43,455 nucleotides of DNA. Source: Chromatiales bacterium. Its GTDB lineage: Bacteria > Pseudomonadota > Gammaproteobacteria > RBG-16-57-12. This document shows positions 3,324 to 32,163 of the stretch, one piece after another. Every line of letters begins with the position of its first letter. Positions within the stretch are counted from its first letter, which is position 1. A program made the position numbers and the translations under genes. The notes beneath the pieces were generated by a model that made no database searches, had not been told where the DNA came from, and saw only the letters and a program-made list of their open reading frames with translations. The stretch covers positions 1-43,455 of the forward strand of contig JALSJH010000003.1 of the NCBI GenBank assembly GCA_026989455.1, in the 5' to 3' direction.

Positions 3324-3752
3324 ATGATTGATTTTAATGAGGTGCCCAAGGTCGCTGTAGATTTCATGAATGAAGATCATGAAGAGGCAACCCATATCAC
3401 CAACTCGCTACAAACACTGGTGGGGGCTGCTGACAATGGCGAGGTTAATCCGCAGGGTATCAGCGATACCCTAGAGGAGCTTCTTACCCACTGTCGGGAA
3501 CACTTCGCCCGCGAAGAGGCGCAGATGCAGAAGATAAACTTCCCCCCGTATCACATCCATCAGAGTGAACATCAACGAGTATTAGATGAGATGACGCAAG
3601 TGCTTGAAAACTGGCGCAAACACGAAGAGATTGCCACGCTAAAACAGTACACACTCGAGATTCTTCCCGAGTGGTTTGTAAGTCATATTGAGAGTATGGA
3701 TAGCGTGACAGCGATGTTTATCGCACGTGCCGGTGGGCCGTTCGAGTTATAA
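3324..3752 (+). CDS. Bacteriohemerythrin (non-haem di-iron oxygen-binding protein)
   Basis: The 142-residue protein has the hemerythrin ligand pattern: H19/H24 in the first helix, H60xxxE64, H79xxxH83 and H121xxxxD126. It is a single-domain, soluble protein with no signal or sensor module. Such proteins bind O2 reversibly at a di-iron centre and are thought to store, deliver or sense oxygen in micro-oxic bacteria. The start is ATG with GAGG about nine bases upstream. Upstream lies an FNR/Anr-type promoter, so expression probably rises when oxygen is low. The gene is monocistronic; it converges with the repeat-protein gene and is followed by two small hairpins. Confidence 0.9.
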   Translation: MIDFNEVPKVAVDFMNEDHEEATHITNSLQTLVGAADNGEVNPQGISDTLEELLTHCREHFAREEAQMQKINFPPYHIHQSEHQRVLDEMTQVLENWRKHEEIATLKQYTLEILPEWFVSHIESMDSVTAMFIARAGGPFEL

Positions 3753-3812: not shown

Positions 3813-4307
3813 CTATATACTGTTTGCTGAATCACTCATATCACCATCACTTTTCTCGGATTTATCTTTATCACAAGGCTCATCACCTGCAGCAGCAGCG
3901 GCGGCCTTTTTGTCGCATGGCTCATCACCTGCAACAGCGGCAGATTTTTTGTCGCATGGCTCATCACCTGCAGCAGCGGCGGCCTTTTTGTCACATGGCT
4001 CATCGCCTGCAGCAGCGGCGGCTTTTTTATCGCATGGCTCATCGCCTGCAGCAGCGGCGGCTTTTTTATCGCATGGCTCATCGCCTGCAGCAGCGGCGGC
4101 CTTTTTGTCGCATGGCTCATCACCTGCAGCAGCGGCGGCCTTTTTGTCGCATGGCTCTTTACCCGACTCTTCTCCACCTTGGCGGTCATCTGACTCACTC
4201 GAGTTATGGTAATCACTCTTTTCGTCTGGCTCTGCCATGCTCAACAGGGGCCAAGCCGATAAACCCAAAACCGCCAATAGAGCTACTAATTTCATTGGAA
4301 TACGCAT
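3813..4307 (-). CDS. Exported low-complexity protein with PCDKKAAAAAGDE repeats
   Basis: The 164-residue product has a signal peptide (MRIPMKLVALLAVLGLSAWP, cleavage near LLSMA-EP). An acidic linker follows, then seven tandem 13-residue units of the form PCDKKAAAAAGDE (one unit has 14 residues, one reads KKSAAVA), an eighth partial unit and an acidic Ser/Asp tail. Each unit has one Cys, so the mature protein carries eight evenly spaced cysteines. A GGA-type ribosome site lies nine bases before the ATG. Function is unknown. The spacing could suit metal or thiol binding or a disulfide-linked envelope polymer, but that is speculation. Because the repeat is a multiple of three bases, long overlapping frames on both strands are artefacts. 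It is divergent from the 262-residue unknown gene. Confidence 0.65.
   Translation of the reverse strand: MRIPMKLVALLAVLGLSAWPLLSMAEPDEKSDYHNSSESDDRQGGEESGKEPCDKKAAAAAGDEPCDKKAAAAAGDEPCDKKAAAAAGDEPCDKKAAAAAGDEPCDKKAAAAAGDEPCDKKSAAVAGDEPCDKKAAAAAAGDEPCDKDKSEKSDGDMSDSANSI
3874..4149. repeat. Tandem array of seven 39-bp units (one 42 bp)
   Basis: Seven head-to-tail copies fill 276 bases: six of 39 bp and one of 42 bp, the latter with an extra GCA. They differ by few bases. On the minus strand they encode the PCDKKAAAAAGDE units. High identity between copies suggests recent expansion by slippage or unequal recombination, so copy number probably varies between strains. Confidence 0.95.
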
Positions 4308-4438
4308 TCAAACTGATCCTTTTTTATCATTCAGAAGAGATATAAACCATTCACTTGCCAAGTACAATAGTCACACCACAAGAAAGTGGTTAAGATTGCC
4401 TCTCTATTATTAATAGCCAACCGGAGTACGACCTCAAA

Positions 4439-5227
4439 ATGTTCGGTCTGTTCAAAAGAAAAAGCCTGCTCGATGAAGGCACCACCCAATGGCTCTTTGA
4501 TAGCTTCAATTGGGCACTGGATAATTTTGATGCACAACTGTTTCAGCAGCAGACACCACTGGTGTTGGCTAACGATCAATTTTTCCCAGACAGAGCCACC
4601 TCACCAGATGAAACAGCCAATGCACTACTGCAGCGAGTGCTGGAATATAGCGCAATGCAACAGTGGCCTTGCCGGGCACGCCCCGCCACCCCTCAGGACG
4701 ACATTGCCCCGACCCCTCACATCCAGATCAAAAACGCACTGCGCGGCCCCAATGCACAGATCAGCGTTGAAGGTGATGGTTGGATTGATATCCCCTACAA
4801 CCCACAGGCGTTACGCCAGCCGGATGCACTGATCGCCGCACTGGCACAAAATCTTGCAGTACTACTTGGACGTGCCATTCCGACACCACCACCCGGCGGT
4901 GAAGAGCTGCGGGCACCAGCCACCGACCTACTCACTATTTTTCTCGGCTTTGGGCTTTTCATTACCAACAACGCCTTTAATATTCAACGGGGTGGTTGTG
5001 GTAGCTGCCGCCCTTCGTCCGTTCAGCTAATGGGGGAGCTAACAGAAGAGCAGATGTGTTATGCCCTTGCAATATTTTGCCATCTAAAGGAAATTGATAA
5101 CCGAGAGCTACTCCCCCACCTAAAAAAGAGCCTGCACAAGCTGTTTAAGCAAGCACGAAAAGAGATTCTGCATCAACCCCATGAGTTAGCCCGCTTGACC
5201 AAAAATAGAGCGCGCCTTGAGAGATAA
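4439..5227 (+). CDS. Conserved-looking protein of unknown function
   Basis: The 262-residue protein starts MFGLFKRKSLLDE and has no signal peptide. The middle shows TDLLTIFLGFGLFITNNAFN (residues about 160-180), immediately followed by RGGCGSCRPSS, with two cysteines spaced CxxC. The C-terminal third is helical and Lys/Arg/Leu rich (HLKKSLHKLFKQARKE). The CGSC pair beside a hydrophobic segment could bind a metal or be redox active, but I do not recognise the family and assign no reaction. A GGAG lies 12 bases before the ATG, a little far. It is divergent from the exported repeat protein and followed by a long spacer before the EF-G gene. Confidence 0.6.
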   Translation: MFGLFKRKSLLDEGTTQWLFDSFNWALDNFDAQLFQQQTPLVLANDQFFPDRATSPDETANALLQRVLEYSAMQQWPCRARPATPQDDIAPTPHIQIKNALRGPNAQISVEGDGWIDIPYNPQALRQPDALIAALAQNLAVLLGRAIPTPPPGGEELRAPATDLLTIFLGFGLFITNNAFNIQRGGCGSCRPSSVQLMGELTEEQMCYALAIFCHLKEIDNRELLPHLKKSLHKLFKQARKEILHQPHELARLTKNRARLER

Positions 5228-23824: not shown

Positions 23825-24910
23825 TCACTGCAACAAGCCAACACTCTTAATTTGCACATAGCAGTGGCTTGCCACTTTGAGCTGTAATCTTTCGAATGAT
23901 TTTAAGGTGATGCGTGATAACAGTAGCGGTGATCCGTTTTCGCCGCTACTCAGTTGCAATATCAGCTGCCCTTGGCTTACCTCTGATACGGCCTCGATCA
24001 CCATCGGCCAGATATTTTGAATGCTGCTACCAACGGCGGGTTGAAGTGTAATGCTGACATCCTTGGCGGGGATATGTACTCGAACCTCATCACCCACCTT
24101 TCGGTTTACCCGTTTTACCCAGAGTTCTCCACAGCGGCACTGTAGGCGACTGAGGTGGTAGTAGTCATCATGCTGCATCACTTTGGCTATCATCACCTCA
24201 CCCGCCTCTTCACCGTGGCGGGCGGCGAGGTCAAAGCGCCCCATCACTTGTTGAAGTGAGCCTTCGGCCTGCACTTTTCCTTGCTCTATCCACACCATAT
24301 AGTCTGCGAGACGGCTCAGCTCTTTTTGTGAGTGAGTGACGTAGATCACCGGCATCGCCAGCTCATCATGTAGCCGCTCTAGGTAGGGTAAAACTTCCTG
24401 CTTGCTGTGTTCATCCAGTGCCGAGAGCGGCTCATCCATCAGCAATAACCTGGGGCTGGTCAGCAGGGCACGGGCAATGGCAACGCGCTGTTGCTCTCCT
24501 CCAGAGAGGTGTGTAACGGCTCTTTTTAACAGATGAGTAATGCTCAGCATCTGCACCACATCATCCATTTTCATAATTCGCTCATGGGGCTTTAGGCGCT
24601 TCTCTCCAAACTGAATATTCTGTTGTACATTCAGGTGGGCAAAAAGGTTGGCCTCCTGGAAAACATAACCCACAGGGCGTTTGTGGGGTGGGGTGAAAAG
24701 AGAGTCCATGCTCTGCCACGGCTCGCCATCAACCGAAAGCGAGCCATCAATCTTCGGCTCTAATCCAGCAATACAACGCAGCAGGGTGGTTTTACCCGAA
24801 CCCGAATCACCAAACAGCGCACTGACCCCTTGGCCAGGTAGCGTAAAACGAGCATCCAACTGGAATTCACCACGGTCGGCTTTAAAGTGCGCCTGGATTG
24901 CTCTGCTCAT
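23825..24910 (-). CDS. modC: Molybdate ABC transporter ATP-binding protein ModC
   Basis: The 361-residue ATPase has Walker A GDSGSGKT (34-41), Q-loop YVFQEANLF, signature LSGGEQQR, Walker B LLLMDEPLSALD and the switch His in YVTHSQKE. A C-terminal TOBE-type molybdate-binding region (about 290-358) follows. It powers molybdate uptake for molybdenum cofactor enzymes. Its start overlaps the modB stop by four bases (ATGA type), so the two are translationally coupled. It is the last gene of modABC; the DedA-PAP2 gene starts about 90 bases further on. Confidence 0.95.
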   Translation of the reverse strand: MSRAIQAHFKADRGEFQLDARFTLPGQGVSALFGDSGSGKTTLLRCIAGLEPKIDGSLSVDGEPWQSMDSLFTPPHKRPVGYVFQEANLFAHLNVQQNIQFGEKRLKPHERIMKMDDVVQMLSITHLLKRAVTHLSGGEQQRVAIARALLTSPRLLLMDEPLSALDEHSKQEVLPYLERLHDELAMPVIYVTHSQKELSRLADYMVWIEQGKVQAEGSLQQVMGRFDLAARHGEEAGEVMIAKVMQHDDYYHLSRLQCRCGELWVKRVNRKVGDEVRVHIPAKDVSITLQPAVGSSIQNIWPMVIEAVSEVSQGQLILQLSSGENGSPLLLSRITLKSFERLQLKVASHCYVQIKSVGLLQ

Positions 24911-25581
24911 CGATTGCGCACCTCAATGCGACGGTTCATATAGTAGAGCGTCAGTAGCACCACAAAGGAGAACAGCACCATACCGGCTGAGAGAATATGT
25001 GCCTGACCATACTCCAGCATTTCGACATGGTCATAGATGGCAATCGATAGCACCTGTGTTTCACCGGGAATATTGCCGCCAATCATCAATATCACACCAA
25101 ATTCACCAATGGTGTGGGCAAAGCAGAGGACAATTCCGGTGATAAAGCCAGGGCGTGCCAGCGGCACCACAACACTCATAAAAGTATCGAAGGGTGATGC
25201 CCTTAGCGTGGCGGCACTCTCCAGCGGCTTAGTGCCGAGGTTTTCAAAGGCATTTTGTAACGGCTGAACCATGAACGGCAGGGAGTAGAAGATAGAGGCG
25301 ACCACCAAACCGGCAAAGGTAAATGGCAGGGTATCCAGACCAAGCCGCTGCATAAACTGCCCCACCGCACCTTGCGGGCCGAGTAACAGCAGCAGATAAA
25401 AACCCAAAACAGTAGAGGGCAGCACTAGCGGCAGTGCAATAATCGCGGCAATCGGCTGTTTAAAGAGAGAGCGGGTTTGTGACAACCACCAGGCCAGTGG
25501 TGTGCCGATCAGTAACAACAGAAGCGTGGTCACACTGGCCAGTTTGAGGCTTAACCAGACCGGTTGCCAATCCATCTCCAT
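24907..25581 (-). CDS. modB: Molybdate ABC transporter permease ModB
   Basis: The 224-residue protein has five predicted membrane helices (first at about 9-31, ASVTTLLLLLIGTPLAWWL) and the cytoplasmic EAA-like loop ESAATLRASPFDTFMSVVVPLARPG that docks on ModC. HTIGEFGVILMIGGNIPGET is the molybdate/sulfate permease hallmark near the pore. It forms the membrane channel of the importer and overlaps modC by four bases. modA lies 60 bases upstream on the same strand. Confidence 0.95.
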   Translation of the reverse strand: MEMDWQPVWLSLKLASVTTLLLLLIGTPLAWWLSQTRSLFKQPIAAIIALPLVLPSTVLGFYLLLLLGPQGAVGQFMQRLGLDTLPFTFAGLVVASIFYSLPFMVQPLQNAFENLGTKPLESAATLRASPFDTFMSVVVPLARPGFITGIVLCFAHTIGEFGVILMIGGNIPGETQVLSIAIYDHVEMLEYGQAHILSAGMVLFSFVVLLTLYYMNRRIEVRNR

Positions 25582-25641
25582 GGTTAAAAATATCCTGAAT
25601 AAGTCAGTTTGAATTCAAACTTGGATATGAGTCGCTGCAAT

Positions 25642-26448
25642 TTAATCATGACGGTTTAGAGACTCCTGGCTACTCACTGTGGGGGCACTTAACCCATCAT
25701 ACCCGGCGGCTATAATAATCTGTTTTGCCGAGTCACTGCGTAGATAATCGACAAATGCGCTGGCCGCCGGATGACCTGCTGCACGTTTTAACCATACCGC
25801 CTGTTGTGCAATGGGCGTGTAATAATCCTTCGGAACACGCCATATGGCACCTTTCAGGGAATCACCCGCCGCTACAATTTGTGCGCTGGCCACAAAGCCC
25901 AGCTGAGCATTGCCACTGTGAACAAATTGATACGCCTGAGCAACATTCTCCCCCCTCACCGTGCGTTTTAAAAAGCGCTGGCTCAAGCCAAAGCGCGTCA
26001 TCACCTCCATAGCAGCGGCACCGTAGGGTGCTATTTTGGGGTTCGCCATCGAGAGGTAGGAGAAGTCACCTTGGCGCAACTGCTGCAACGCCTCTTCAGG
26101 GGAGTGAGCACCCGGTGCCCAGAGCACCAGCTTGCCGATTGCATAGGTGAAGCGCTGATTAGGAACAACTAGCCCTAGGTTTTCTAAACGACGGGGGCGC
26201 AGCGCATCAGCGGATAAAAAAATATCGAAGGGTGCGCCATGGGTGATCTGCGCAAACAGCTTGCCACTCGAAGCGTAGCTGGTGCTTACCTGGTAGCCAC
26301 TCTGTAACTCAAATTGTGAAACCAGTTTTTGCATGGCTGATGCAAAGTTAGAGGCGACCGCAATTTGTAACTTATCCGCTGCGAATAGTGGGCCGCTTAA
26401 CAAGGCGAATAGGGAAAAACAGAGCAACGCTCTTGTAGGAGTTTTCAT
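25642..26448 (-). CDS. modA: Periplasmic molybdate-binding protein ModA
   Basis: The 268-residue protein has a signal peptide (MKTPTRALLCFSLFALLSG, cleavage near LFA-ADK), then LQIAVASNFASAMQKL, FEL..GYQVSTSYASSGKLFAQI, and PFDIFLSADALRPRRLE, the oxyanion-binding motifs of ModA/WtpA-type binding proteins. It captures molybdate or tungstate and hands it to ModB. I chose ATG 26448 because it gives the cleanest signal peptide; an ATG at 26466 adds six residues, and neither has a strong ribosome site. It follows guaA on the same strand with a gap of about 100 bases containing an inverted repeat. I saw no ModE-type operator. Confidence 0.92.
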   Translation of the reverse strand: MKTPTRALLCFSLFALLSGPLFAADKLQIAVASNFASAMQKLVSQFELQSGYQVSTSYASSGKLFAQITHGAPFDIFLSADALRPRRLENLGLVVPNQRFTYAIGKLVLWAPGAHSPEEALQQLRQGDFSYLSMANPKIAPYGAAAMEVMTRFGLSQRFLKRTVRGENVAQAYQFVHSGNAQLGFVASAQIVAAGDSLKGAIWRVPKDYYTPIAQQAVWLKRAAGHPAASAFVDYLRSDSAKQIIIAAGYDGLSAPTVSSQESLNRHD

Positions 26449-26517
26449 GCCACAATGGTATCTCATCTCACCCGGTAAAGTCGCTCAGATGACCCGTGAA
26501 CTCTGTGATTTATTGAT

Positions 26518-30261: not shown

Positions 30262-31602
30262 ATGAACCAAAAGCAGCGCTTCATCTACAACATCAGCCAG
30301 TTATCGACTGAGGCAAAAGAGCTTCTTGAAGGTACCTTCCCTCTCATCTGGGTAGAGGGTGAAATATCCAATTTCTCCTGCCCAAGCTCCGGACACTGGT
30401 ACTTCACCCTTAAAGATAACCGCTCCCAACTGCGCAGCGCCATGTTTCGCATGCGCAATATGCATATCCCCTTTCAGCCTAAAAATGGCGATCAAGTGCT
30501 TATTCGCGCCCGTGTCAGCCTCTACACCGCCCGAGGTGATTTTCAGTTGATTGCGGAGCATATGGAAGAGGCCGGTGATGGTGCGCTTCGTCGCGCCTAC
30601 GAAGCGTTAAAGGCTCGCTTACAGAGTGAAGGGTTATTTGAGGCTCGGCATAAACATGAAATACCACCCCACCCACAGCGGATCGGCATTATCACCTCCC
30701 CGACCGGTGCCGCTATTAGGGATATTCTGCATGTTTTAAAACGTCGAGCCCCCTCGATTCCCGTCACCCTCTACCCCGCTGCGGTACAGGGCGAGCAGGC
30801 AGCCGAGCATATTATTGATGCACTGCAGTGCGCCATTGATGATAAAAGGTGTGACACCCTGATCATCGGGCGGGGTGGCGGTTCGATTGAGGATCTTTGG
30901 GCATTTAATAGTGAACCACTGGCACGCCTGATTTATAGCGCGCCAATCCCGATTATAAGCGCCGTTGGTCATGAAATTGATTACACCATTTGCGACTTTG
31001 TTGCCGATCAACGCGCCCCCACACCCTCCGCTGCTGCCGAAATGGCCAGCCCGGATCACACCGCATGGCAACATCGACTACAGCAACTTAAACAGCGCCT
31101 TGCCCGCAGCGCTCTAAACCATATCAGCCCGAAAAAACAGCAGCTCGCCTGGCTACAACAGCGAATTCGTCACCCGCAACAGAAGATCATCGAACAGTCA
31201 CAACAGCTCGATGAGATAGAGCAGCAGCTAATCAAACAGATCAAACAGATCATCAACCAAAAGCAACAAAGGGCTGAGCTGCTTGCGGCACAGGTTCAAC
31301 AAAACACACCGTCACACCAACTGACGCACTATGATCTCCACTTCCAGCAATTGAGCCGTCGACTCCACCGCAGTTGTGAAAATATTTTACACGACAGAAA
31401 GCAGACGCTTACCCAATACGCCCATCACCTCAATACCGTCAGCCCCCTTGCCACGCTCAGTCGTGGCTACAGCATCGTCACCCACGAAAAAAGTGGTGCG
31501 GTGATTCGCACCTCCGAACAAGTCAATTGCGGCGATAAAATAAATATTCGGCTTAACCAGGGCCAGCTAGAAGCCATCATCGAGCAGCGCCATGATAGTT
31601 AG
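30262..31602 (+). CDS. xseA: Exodeoxyribonuclease VII large subunit
   Basis: The 446-residue protein has the N-terminal OB fold (LIWVEGEISNFSCPSSGHWY, YFTLKD), the catalytic core with RIGIITSPTGAAIRD, IIGRGGGSIEDLWAFN and SAVGHEIDYTICDFVAD, PTPSAAAEMA, a long Gln-rich coiled coil (about 270-390) and the end motif TLSRGYSIV. With XseB it degrades single-stranded DNA. The start is ATG 30262 (MNQKQRF); an in-frame TTG at 30238 is poorer. No xseB is in this window. Tandem 47-bp repeats begin at its stop codon. Confidence 0.95.
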   Translation: MNQKQRFIYNISQLSTEAKELLEGTFPLIWVEGEISNFSCPSSGHWYFTLKDNRSQLRSAMFRMRNMHIPFQPKNGDQVLIRARVSLYTARGDFQLIAEHMEEAGDGALRRAYEALKARLQSEGLFEARHKHEIPPHPQRIGIITSPTGAAIRDILHVLKRRAPSIPVTLYPAAVQGEQAAEHIIDALQCAIDDKRCDTLIIGRGGGSIEDLWAFNSEPLARLIYSAPIPIISAVGHEIDYTICDFVADQRAPTPSAAAEMASPDHTAWQHRLQQLKQRLARSALNHISPKKQQLAWLQQRIRHPQQKIIEQSQQLDEIEQQLIKQIKQIINQKQQRAELLAAQVQQNTPSHQLTHYDLHFQQLSRRLHRSCENILHDRKQTLTQYAHHLNTVSPLATLSRGYSIVTHEKSGAVIRTSEQVNCGDKINIRLNQGQLEAIIEQRHDS

Positions 31603-31695
31603 CGGTAGCTTTGCCTGCATGGACGCAGGTAAGGGGCGATAGCAGGACGCGGTAGCTTTGCTTGCTTGGACGCAGGTAAGGGGCGATAGCAGGGC
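31602..31695. repeat. Two tandem 47-bp direct repeats after xseA
   Basis: Units 31602-31648 and 31649-31695 both begin GCGGTAGCTTTGC and contain GGACGCAGGTAAGGGGCGAT; they differ at a few bases. The first overlaps the last base of the xseA stop. Each can form a small CCTGC/GCAGG-type hairpin. From here to 31814 nothing else was recognised. Confidence 0.8.
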
Positions 31696-31814
31696 GCAGA
31701 TGGTGTAAGTCCATTGGATCTTTTGTAACCGATGGGGCATTTTGCCCATTGTTTGGTGCTGAGGCGAGGTATTGTTTTTACAGTGAGGGGGTGTAGAGGC
31801 TTAATAAAAAAAGT

Positions 31815-32163
31815 GAGAGTTAGCCGATAAGCCGGGTTCTGTCGTGGACAACCATTCATCTAGGGTATGCGTCACCACATACCTCAAGCAACCTACCCGG
31901 GGACAGCGCGGGTCACACCATTGCCCCCCTATTTGGTCTTGCTCCAAGCGGGGTTTACCTTGCCGCCGAACGTTGCCGCCGACGCGGTGCGCTCTTACCG
32001 CACCATTTCAACCTTACCGGCACCCCGAAAGGTGCTTAGGCGGTATATTTTCTGTTGCACTTTCCGTAGGCTTTCACCTCCCAGGCGTTACCTGGCGCTT
32101 CACCCTATGGAGCCCGGACTTTCCTCGATACCTTACGATAGCGCGGTTGCCTAGCCAACTCTC
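31815..32163 (-). ncRNA. rnpB: RNase P RNA (class A)
   Basis: The minus strand carries the full set of conserved RNase P RNA blocks: GAGGAAAGTCCGGGCTCC, AGGGTG, GGTAACGCCTGG, GTGCAACAGA, GGTGCGGTAAGAGCGCACC, GGTAAACCCC, AGCAAGACCAAATAGG, GTAGG-TTGCTTGAG, and near the 3' end CGACAGAACCCGGCTTATCG. The 5' GAGAGTTGGCT pairs with 3' GGCTAACTCTC to form helix P1, which sets both ends and gives 349 nucleotides. P1 is followed by a run of seven T (31806-31812), so it doubles as the terminator. RNase P RNA is the catalytic part that matures tRNA 5' ends. It lies downstream of rsmI on the same strand. Confidence 0.96.

Follow-up and report, generated by a model that had tools for sequence, protein, structure and literature searches.

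Here we describe a gene for a predicted exported cysteine-repeat protein at positions 3813..4307, on the minus strand, of a 43,455-nucleotide stretch of contig JALSJH010000003.1 from a Chromatiales bacterium (the whole stretch is referred to below as the window). Comparison with two sister genomes of the same genus indicates that this is a genuine orphan at the level of the genus, in which 39-bp units, each carrying one cysteine codon, have turned over separately in different species. We tentatively favor the view that the product would be a periplasmic, disordered, multi-thiol chain binding soft metals, for example as a sponge or buffer, a proposal to which we give somewhat less than an even chance.

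The gene and its repeat array

The reading frame, from its ATG (4307-4305) to its stop codon (3815-3813), encodes 164 amino acids. A sequence-only reading of the window had placed an exported-type repeat protein built from 39-bp units at 3813-4307; its coordinates proved exact, and a codon listing returned the seven units that it described and a final partial unit, with 8 cysteines at residues 53, 66, 79, 92, 105, 118, 131, and 145 (a spacing of 13 six times and of 14 once). Units 1 to 5 are exactly PCDKKAAAAAGDE, unit 6 is PCDKKSAAVAGDE, with two substitutions, and unit 7 is PCDKKAAAAAAGDE, with an extra alanine, after which the partial eighth unit reads PCDKDKSEK. Tandem Repeats Finder bounded the minus-strand array at 3877..4157, with a period of 39 bp, 7.1 copies, and 92% matches, and the codon listing places one cysteine codon in each unit. 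This periodicity is far beyond chance: the self-identity of the array at offset 39 was 0.88, whereas over 2,000 codon shuffles it averaged 0.37 and never exceeded 0.48.

Residues 1 to 25 (4233..4307, minus strand) resemble a signal peptide, consisting of MRIPMK, a hydrophobic stretch, and the proposed cleavage site SMA|EPDEK, an assignment made by inspection with the help of a hydropathy profile; an acidic linker separates this segment from the repeat units. A signal-like N terminus is present in all three genomes of the genus, in agreement with the signal peptide proposed earlier, and the protein is predicted to be Sec exported to the envelope. Over codons 1 to 27, the ratios of nonsynonymous to synonymous substitution rates (dN/dS) for the three genome pairs were 0.06, 0.13, and 0.09. 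Conservation extends into the upstream DNA (4308..4376, minus strand), where a three-genome alignment revealed 60/64, 45/61, and 47/61 identical bases in the three pairs and where a ribosome-binding-like AAGGA lies nine bases before the ATG. A consensus scan found neither a sigma-70 promoter nor a terminator at the gene.

Orthologues, unit turnover, and distribution

Searches reached two sister genomes of the genus, G001 and G002 (the window's own genome being G000), and each contains an intact orthologue adjoining the same divergent 262-amino-acid gene. The sequence-only reading had named an absence of homologues, or frameshifts in related strains, as grounds for abandoning it; what the relatives hold is two intact copies. 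The G002 orthologue (127 amino acids, 6 cysteines) carries four copies of PCDKKAAAALGDE and has PCDKKGESDDEKPCDKEKK at its end. The G001 orthologue, the most diverged of the three, has 99 amino acids, 4 cysteines, and 7 histidines, the latter in stretches such as GGHQHDGEHHG, a kind of sequence common in metal-binding low-complexity segments. Its modules read KPCHHN, EPCDSKK, EPCDSKK, and KPCDKKK and have no alanine tracts, the alanine spacer being present only in G000 and G002. All 18 cysteines of the three proteins lie in an [E/K]PC context, and aspartate follows in 17 of the 18, so the module can be written as [E/K]PCD followed by lysine-rich residues. By eye, no unit without a cysteine was seen in any orthologue, in units that the script had cut at PC. 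Thus, of the regular cysteines in an alanine/lysine/aspartate matrix described earlier, the cysteines are kept in every unit seen, but the alanine matrix is absent from the most diverged orthologue.

Units resemble one another more closely within a genome than between genomes, which shows separate unit turnover in each species and bears out the suspicion, raised on first inspection, of recent expansion. The mean number of base differences between units was 3.07 within G000 (15 pairs among six units, the longer seventh being omitted) and 2.83 within G002 (6 pairs), versus 5.92 between the two (24 pairs). Over 101 codons compared between G000 and G002 in the frame of the gene, dS was 0.64 and dN was 0.08 (ratio, 0.13), and the ratios in the other two minus-strand frames were 0.75 and 2.32, a substitution pattern showing that the gene is under purifying selection in its frame. 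The long opposite-strand open reading frames of the window have no counterpart of at least 60 amino acids on that strand in G001, although some do in G002. From these comparisons, we regard the minus-strand reading frame as a real gene.

If only the N terminus of the exported protein mattered, the repeats could be a near-neutral, low-complexity tail generated by slippage of the 39-bp unit. Unit number and the alanine tract do differ between species, and unrelated repeats are matched because they share its 13-residue period; however, cysteine and proline are fixed while the rest drifts, and dN/dS is 0.12 over the first four units, a figure that homogenization of the units can lower. We consider this explanation very unlikely.

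The genome sets that were searched overlap and are samples, such that a distant relative elsewhere is possible; within those limits, no relative beyond the genus was found. A protein search at E ≤ 0.01 matched 10 of 143 genomes, own genome included, and the gene itself was present in 3 of them, all from the genus. The matches in the other seven genomes, at 9 places, proved on reading to be low-complexity or unrelated frames and were rejected as homologues; one, a protein with GDRPA repeats, we take to be an initiation-factor-2 type sequence. That same protein was the fourth match, likewise rejected, when the three-row alignment was searched against 369 genomes of the class (a set overlapping the 143), in which 4 genomes matched at E ≤ 0.001, 3 of them from the genus. 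G003, the only other genome listed for the taxonomic family (86% complete), gave no match. Among 398 genomes from the phylum, a set in which the two sister genomes were not seen, an exact DNA pattern of two neighboring CDKK/PCDK modules occurred in one, that of the window itself. A scan of named genomes for the exact pattern returned 5 stretches, none of which was confirmed, and missed the G001 orthologue although its contig was included, showing that diverged units escape such a scan. Plasmids gave no match, and none of 43 matching stretches on viral contigs was confirmed.

The earlier statement that the repeat belongs to no named family stands, and the protein is assigned to no family as a member. 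NCBIfam and PHROGs returned no family, and the single Pfam match, to Lysostaphin_N (PF25533), scored 24.6 bits, far below the gathering cut-off of 60. A match to the solved structure of Rhoptry neck protein 4 had a whole-sequence E value of 2.3e-9, and its separate stretches had independent E values of 0.69, 2.4, and 0.22; it reflects a common 13-residue EP period without cysteines and was rejected. No published description of the repeat was found in the literature searched, in which the string "PCDKKA" had no match.

Possible roles of the modules and the gene neighborhood

Metal binding, thiol binding, or cross-linking by the repeat, as first suggested, is plausible because every unit seen retains a cysteine and because one orthologue is also rich in histidine. 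After the proposed cleavage, the mature chain would be 139 residues long (13.8 kDa), with a net charge of -17 and a pI of 4.3, and it is probably disordered. An AlphaFold2 model from the three-row alignment had a mean predicted local distance difference test score (pLDDT) of 42.3 and a predicted template modeling score of 0.12, with one long helix (residues 5 to 23) over the signal peptide and one four-residue helix (residues 83 to 86).

In the model that we favor, this Sec-exported, intrinsically disordered, acidic envelope protein would have a flexible chain bearing numerous thiols. Each [E/K]PCD module, together with the lysines that follow, would present a single cysteine next to acidic residues. 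Capacity would depend on how many modules there are, and modules would be gained or lost as 39-bp units slipped or were exchanged unequally. In the periplasm, the chain would then act as a sponge or buffer in which several modules together bind one soft metal ion, such as Cu(I) or Zn(II). That the cysteines are fixed while the spacer drifts suggests that selection acts to maintain the thiol, and the histidine-rich orthologue tips the balance toward metal binding; metal as the ligand and buffering as the role are what we infer from this pattern. A more specific proposal is that the protein is the founding member of an exported family in which thiol dose is set by how many copies of a 13-residue [E/K]PCD module are present, these being expanded and homogenized separately in each species, with cysteine modules possibly replacing an older histidine-based metal-binding segment (7 histidines and 4 cysteines in one species versus 0 to 1 histidine and 6 to 8 cysteines in the others). 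We consider this version somewhat unlikely.

Several observations weigh against a metal-binding role. The repeat protein has none of the CxC, CxxC, or CxH clusters from which a compact metal site could be built, and its mature part has 1 and 0 histidines in the two species with the most cysteines. The structural model rests on 3 sequences, and so shallow an alignment gives poor AlphaFold2 models anyway. No metal-resistance gene adjoins the repeat gene, the nearest metal-related genes found in the window being those for the molybdate transporter modABC, 19.5 kb away with other genes between. A conserved upstream 15-mer occurs only once in the genome at ≤1 mismatch and thus gave no sign of a shared regulon. 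Finally, a DsbB match above the cut-off in all three genomes of the genus implies that the thiols of the protein may be oxidized.

The presence of DsbB also fits an envelope or matrix protein whose unit cysteines are oxidized by the Dsb system, in pairs within the chain or between chains, to form loops or a cross-linked network. Each orthologue has an even number of cysteines (8, 6, and 4), consistent with pairing, although for n = 3 the probability of this by chance is 1 in 8, and matrix proteins in general tolerate low complexity and variation in length. A chain so strongly charged (-17) is not an obvious structural matrix, however, and the histidine-rich orthologue is left unexplained; we judge the disulfide-linked protein unlikely, if worth keeping in mind.

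A bacteriohemerythrin-like gene (3324..3752, plus strand) adjoins the repeat gene in two of the three genomes, being kept beside it in G002. It was not among the open reading frames of at least 90 amino acids on the 12.8-kb G001 contig, to which that search was limited; a gene for a 405-amino-acid protein, ATPase-like by eye, stands in its place. This neighbor, together with the many cysteines on a probably disordered chain, could point to a sacrificial periplasmic thiol or redox buffer against reactive oxygen, reactive sulfur, or nitric oxide species, perhaps linked with the bacteriohemerythrin. Yet the hemerythrin-like gene is convergent, and hence not cotranscribed with the repeat gene, besides not being found on the G001 contig. 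Moreover, matches to DsrA (4 of 4 genomes searched) and SoxB (3 of 4) were all below the cut-off and so lend no support to a classical sulfur-oxidizer role. We think a redox buffer quite unlikely.

The remaining neighbors give little help with the function of the repeat protein, and any functional links to them are putative. The divergent gene (4439..5227, plus strand), adjacent in all three genomes of the genus, encodes a 262-amino-acid protein whose family, as yet without a name, has members in 25 of 185 genomes. Its AlphaFold2 model is confident (pLDDT, 85.8) and had no fold match in the PDB at E ≤ 0.001. Three of 22 aligned family members (L033, L034, and L036) contain AHELSHYL, a zinc-peptidase-like HExxH motif, where the window copy reads AQNLAVLL, and two of the 22 have a weak SprT-like match. 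At 22 loci outside the genus (L016 to L037) with flanks of ≤1.5 kb around this gene, no comparable exported cysteine-repeat gene was seen among open reading frames of at least 50 codons, filtered for cysteine spacing and motifs and judged by eye.

The modABC genes (23825-26466, minus strand) exceeded NCBIfam cut-offs. In G002, rearrangement of the gene order has brought their counterparts, matched there as ABC-transporter families, to 4.7 kb from the repeat gene, again with other genes between; we take this proximity as chance. Farther along the window, a class A RNase P RNA lies at 31812-32162 (minus strand), with a 47-bp unit repeated twice nearby (31602-31697).

Comparison with known systems

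Lysostaphin_N, the weak Pfam match over the repeat, has a 13-residue period, and period and composition appear to account for the match. Bacterial metallothioneins are small cytosolic proteins with few aromatic residues and many cysteines, which are their most strongly kept feature, in dense CxC/CxxC clusters. The protein described here is likewise small and poor in aromatic residues, with cysteine its most strongly kept feature, but it looks exported, and its cysteines and those of its orthologues lie 12 to 22 residues apart, with 12 the smallest distance. Copper storage proteins (Csp), some of which are exported, hold many cysteines for soft metal inside a four-helix bundle; the many cysteines are shared, whereas AlphaFold2 predicted no fold here from the three-row alignment.

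The known proteins whose layout comes closest are the Buf_EGKCG/oxazolin precursors, described as MNIO-modified, mostly from Pseudomonadota, and of low complexity, with a signal peptide and a variable number of short tandem cysteine repeats (PMC12452194). The gene for the bufferin MNIO enzyme is normally adjacent to that for the precursor. The shared plan, a signal or signal-like peptide followed by short cysteine repeats of variable number in a low-complexity chain, would suit a ribosomally synthesized and posttranslationally modified peptide precursor in which a partner enzyme chemically modifies the cysteines. Against this, the repeat here has 13 residues with one EPCDKK, the structure is modeled as disordered, the EGKCG motif is absent from the three orthologue sequences, and no modifying enzyme was recognized among the neighbors. 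MNIO (PF05114) was found at E ≤ 0.001 in 0 of 3 genomes of the genus versus 2 of 14 control genomes, so the protein is not a bufferin or oxazolin of the known type, and we consider such a precursor highly improbable. If the modules bind neither metal nor thiol-reactive compounds, the array nonetheless illustrates how rapidly units can turn over while each retains its one cysteine. If they do bind either, the three orthologues would form a natural series of modular thiol carriers with 4, 6, and 8 sites, based on an easily made unit of 13 residues, and would show how such carriers can arise outside the MNIO-dependent bufferins.
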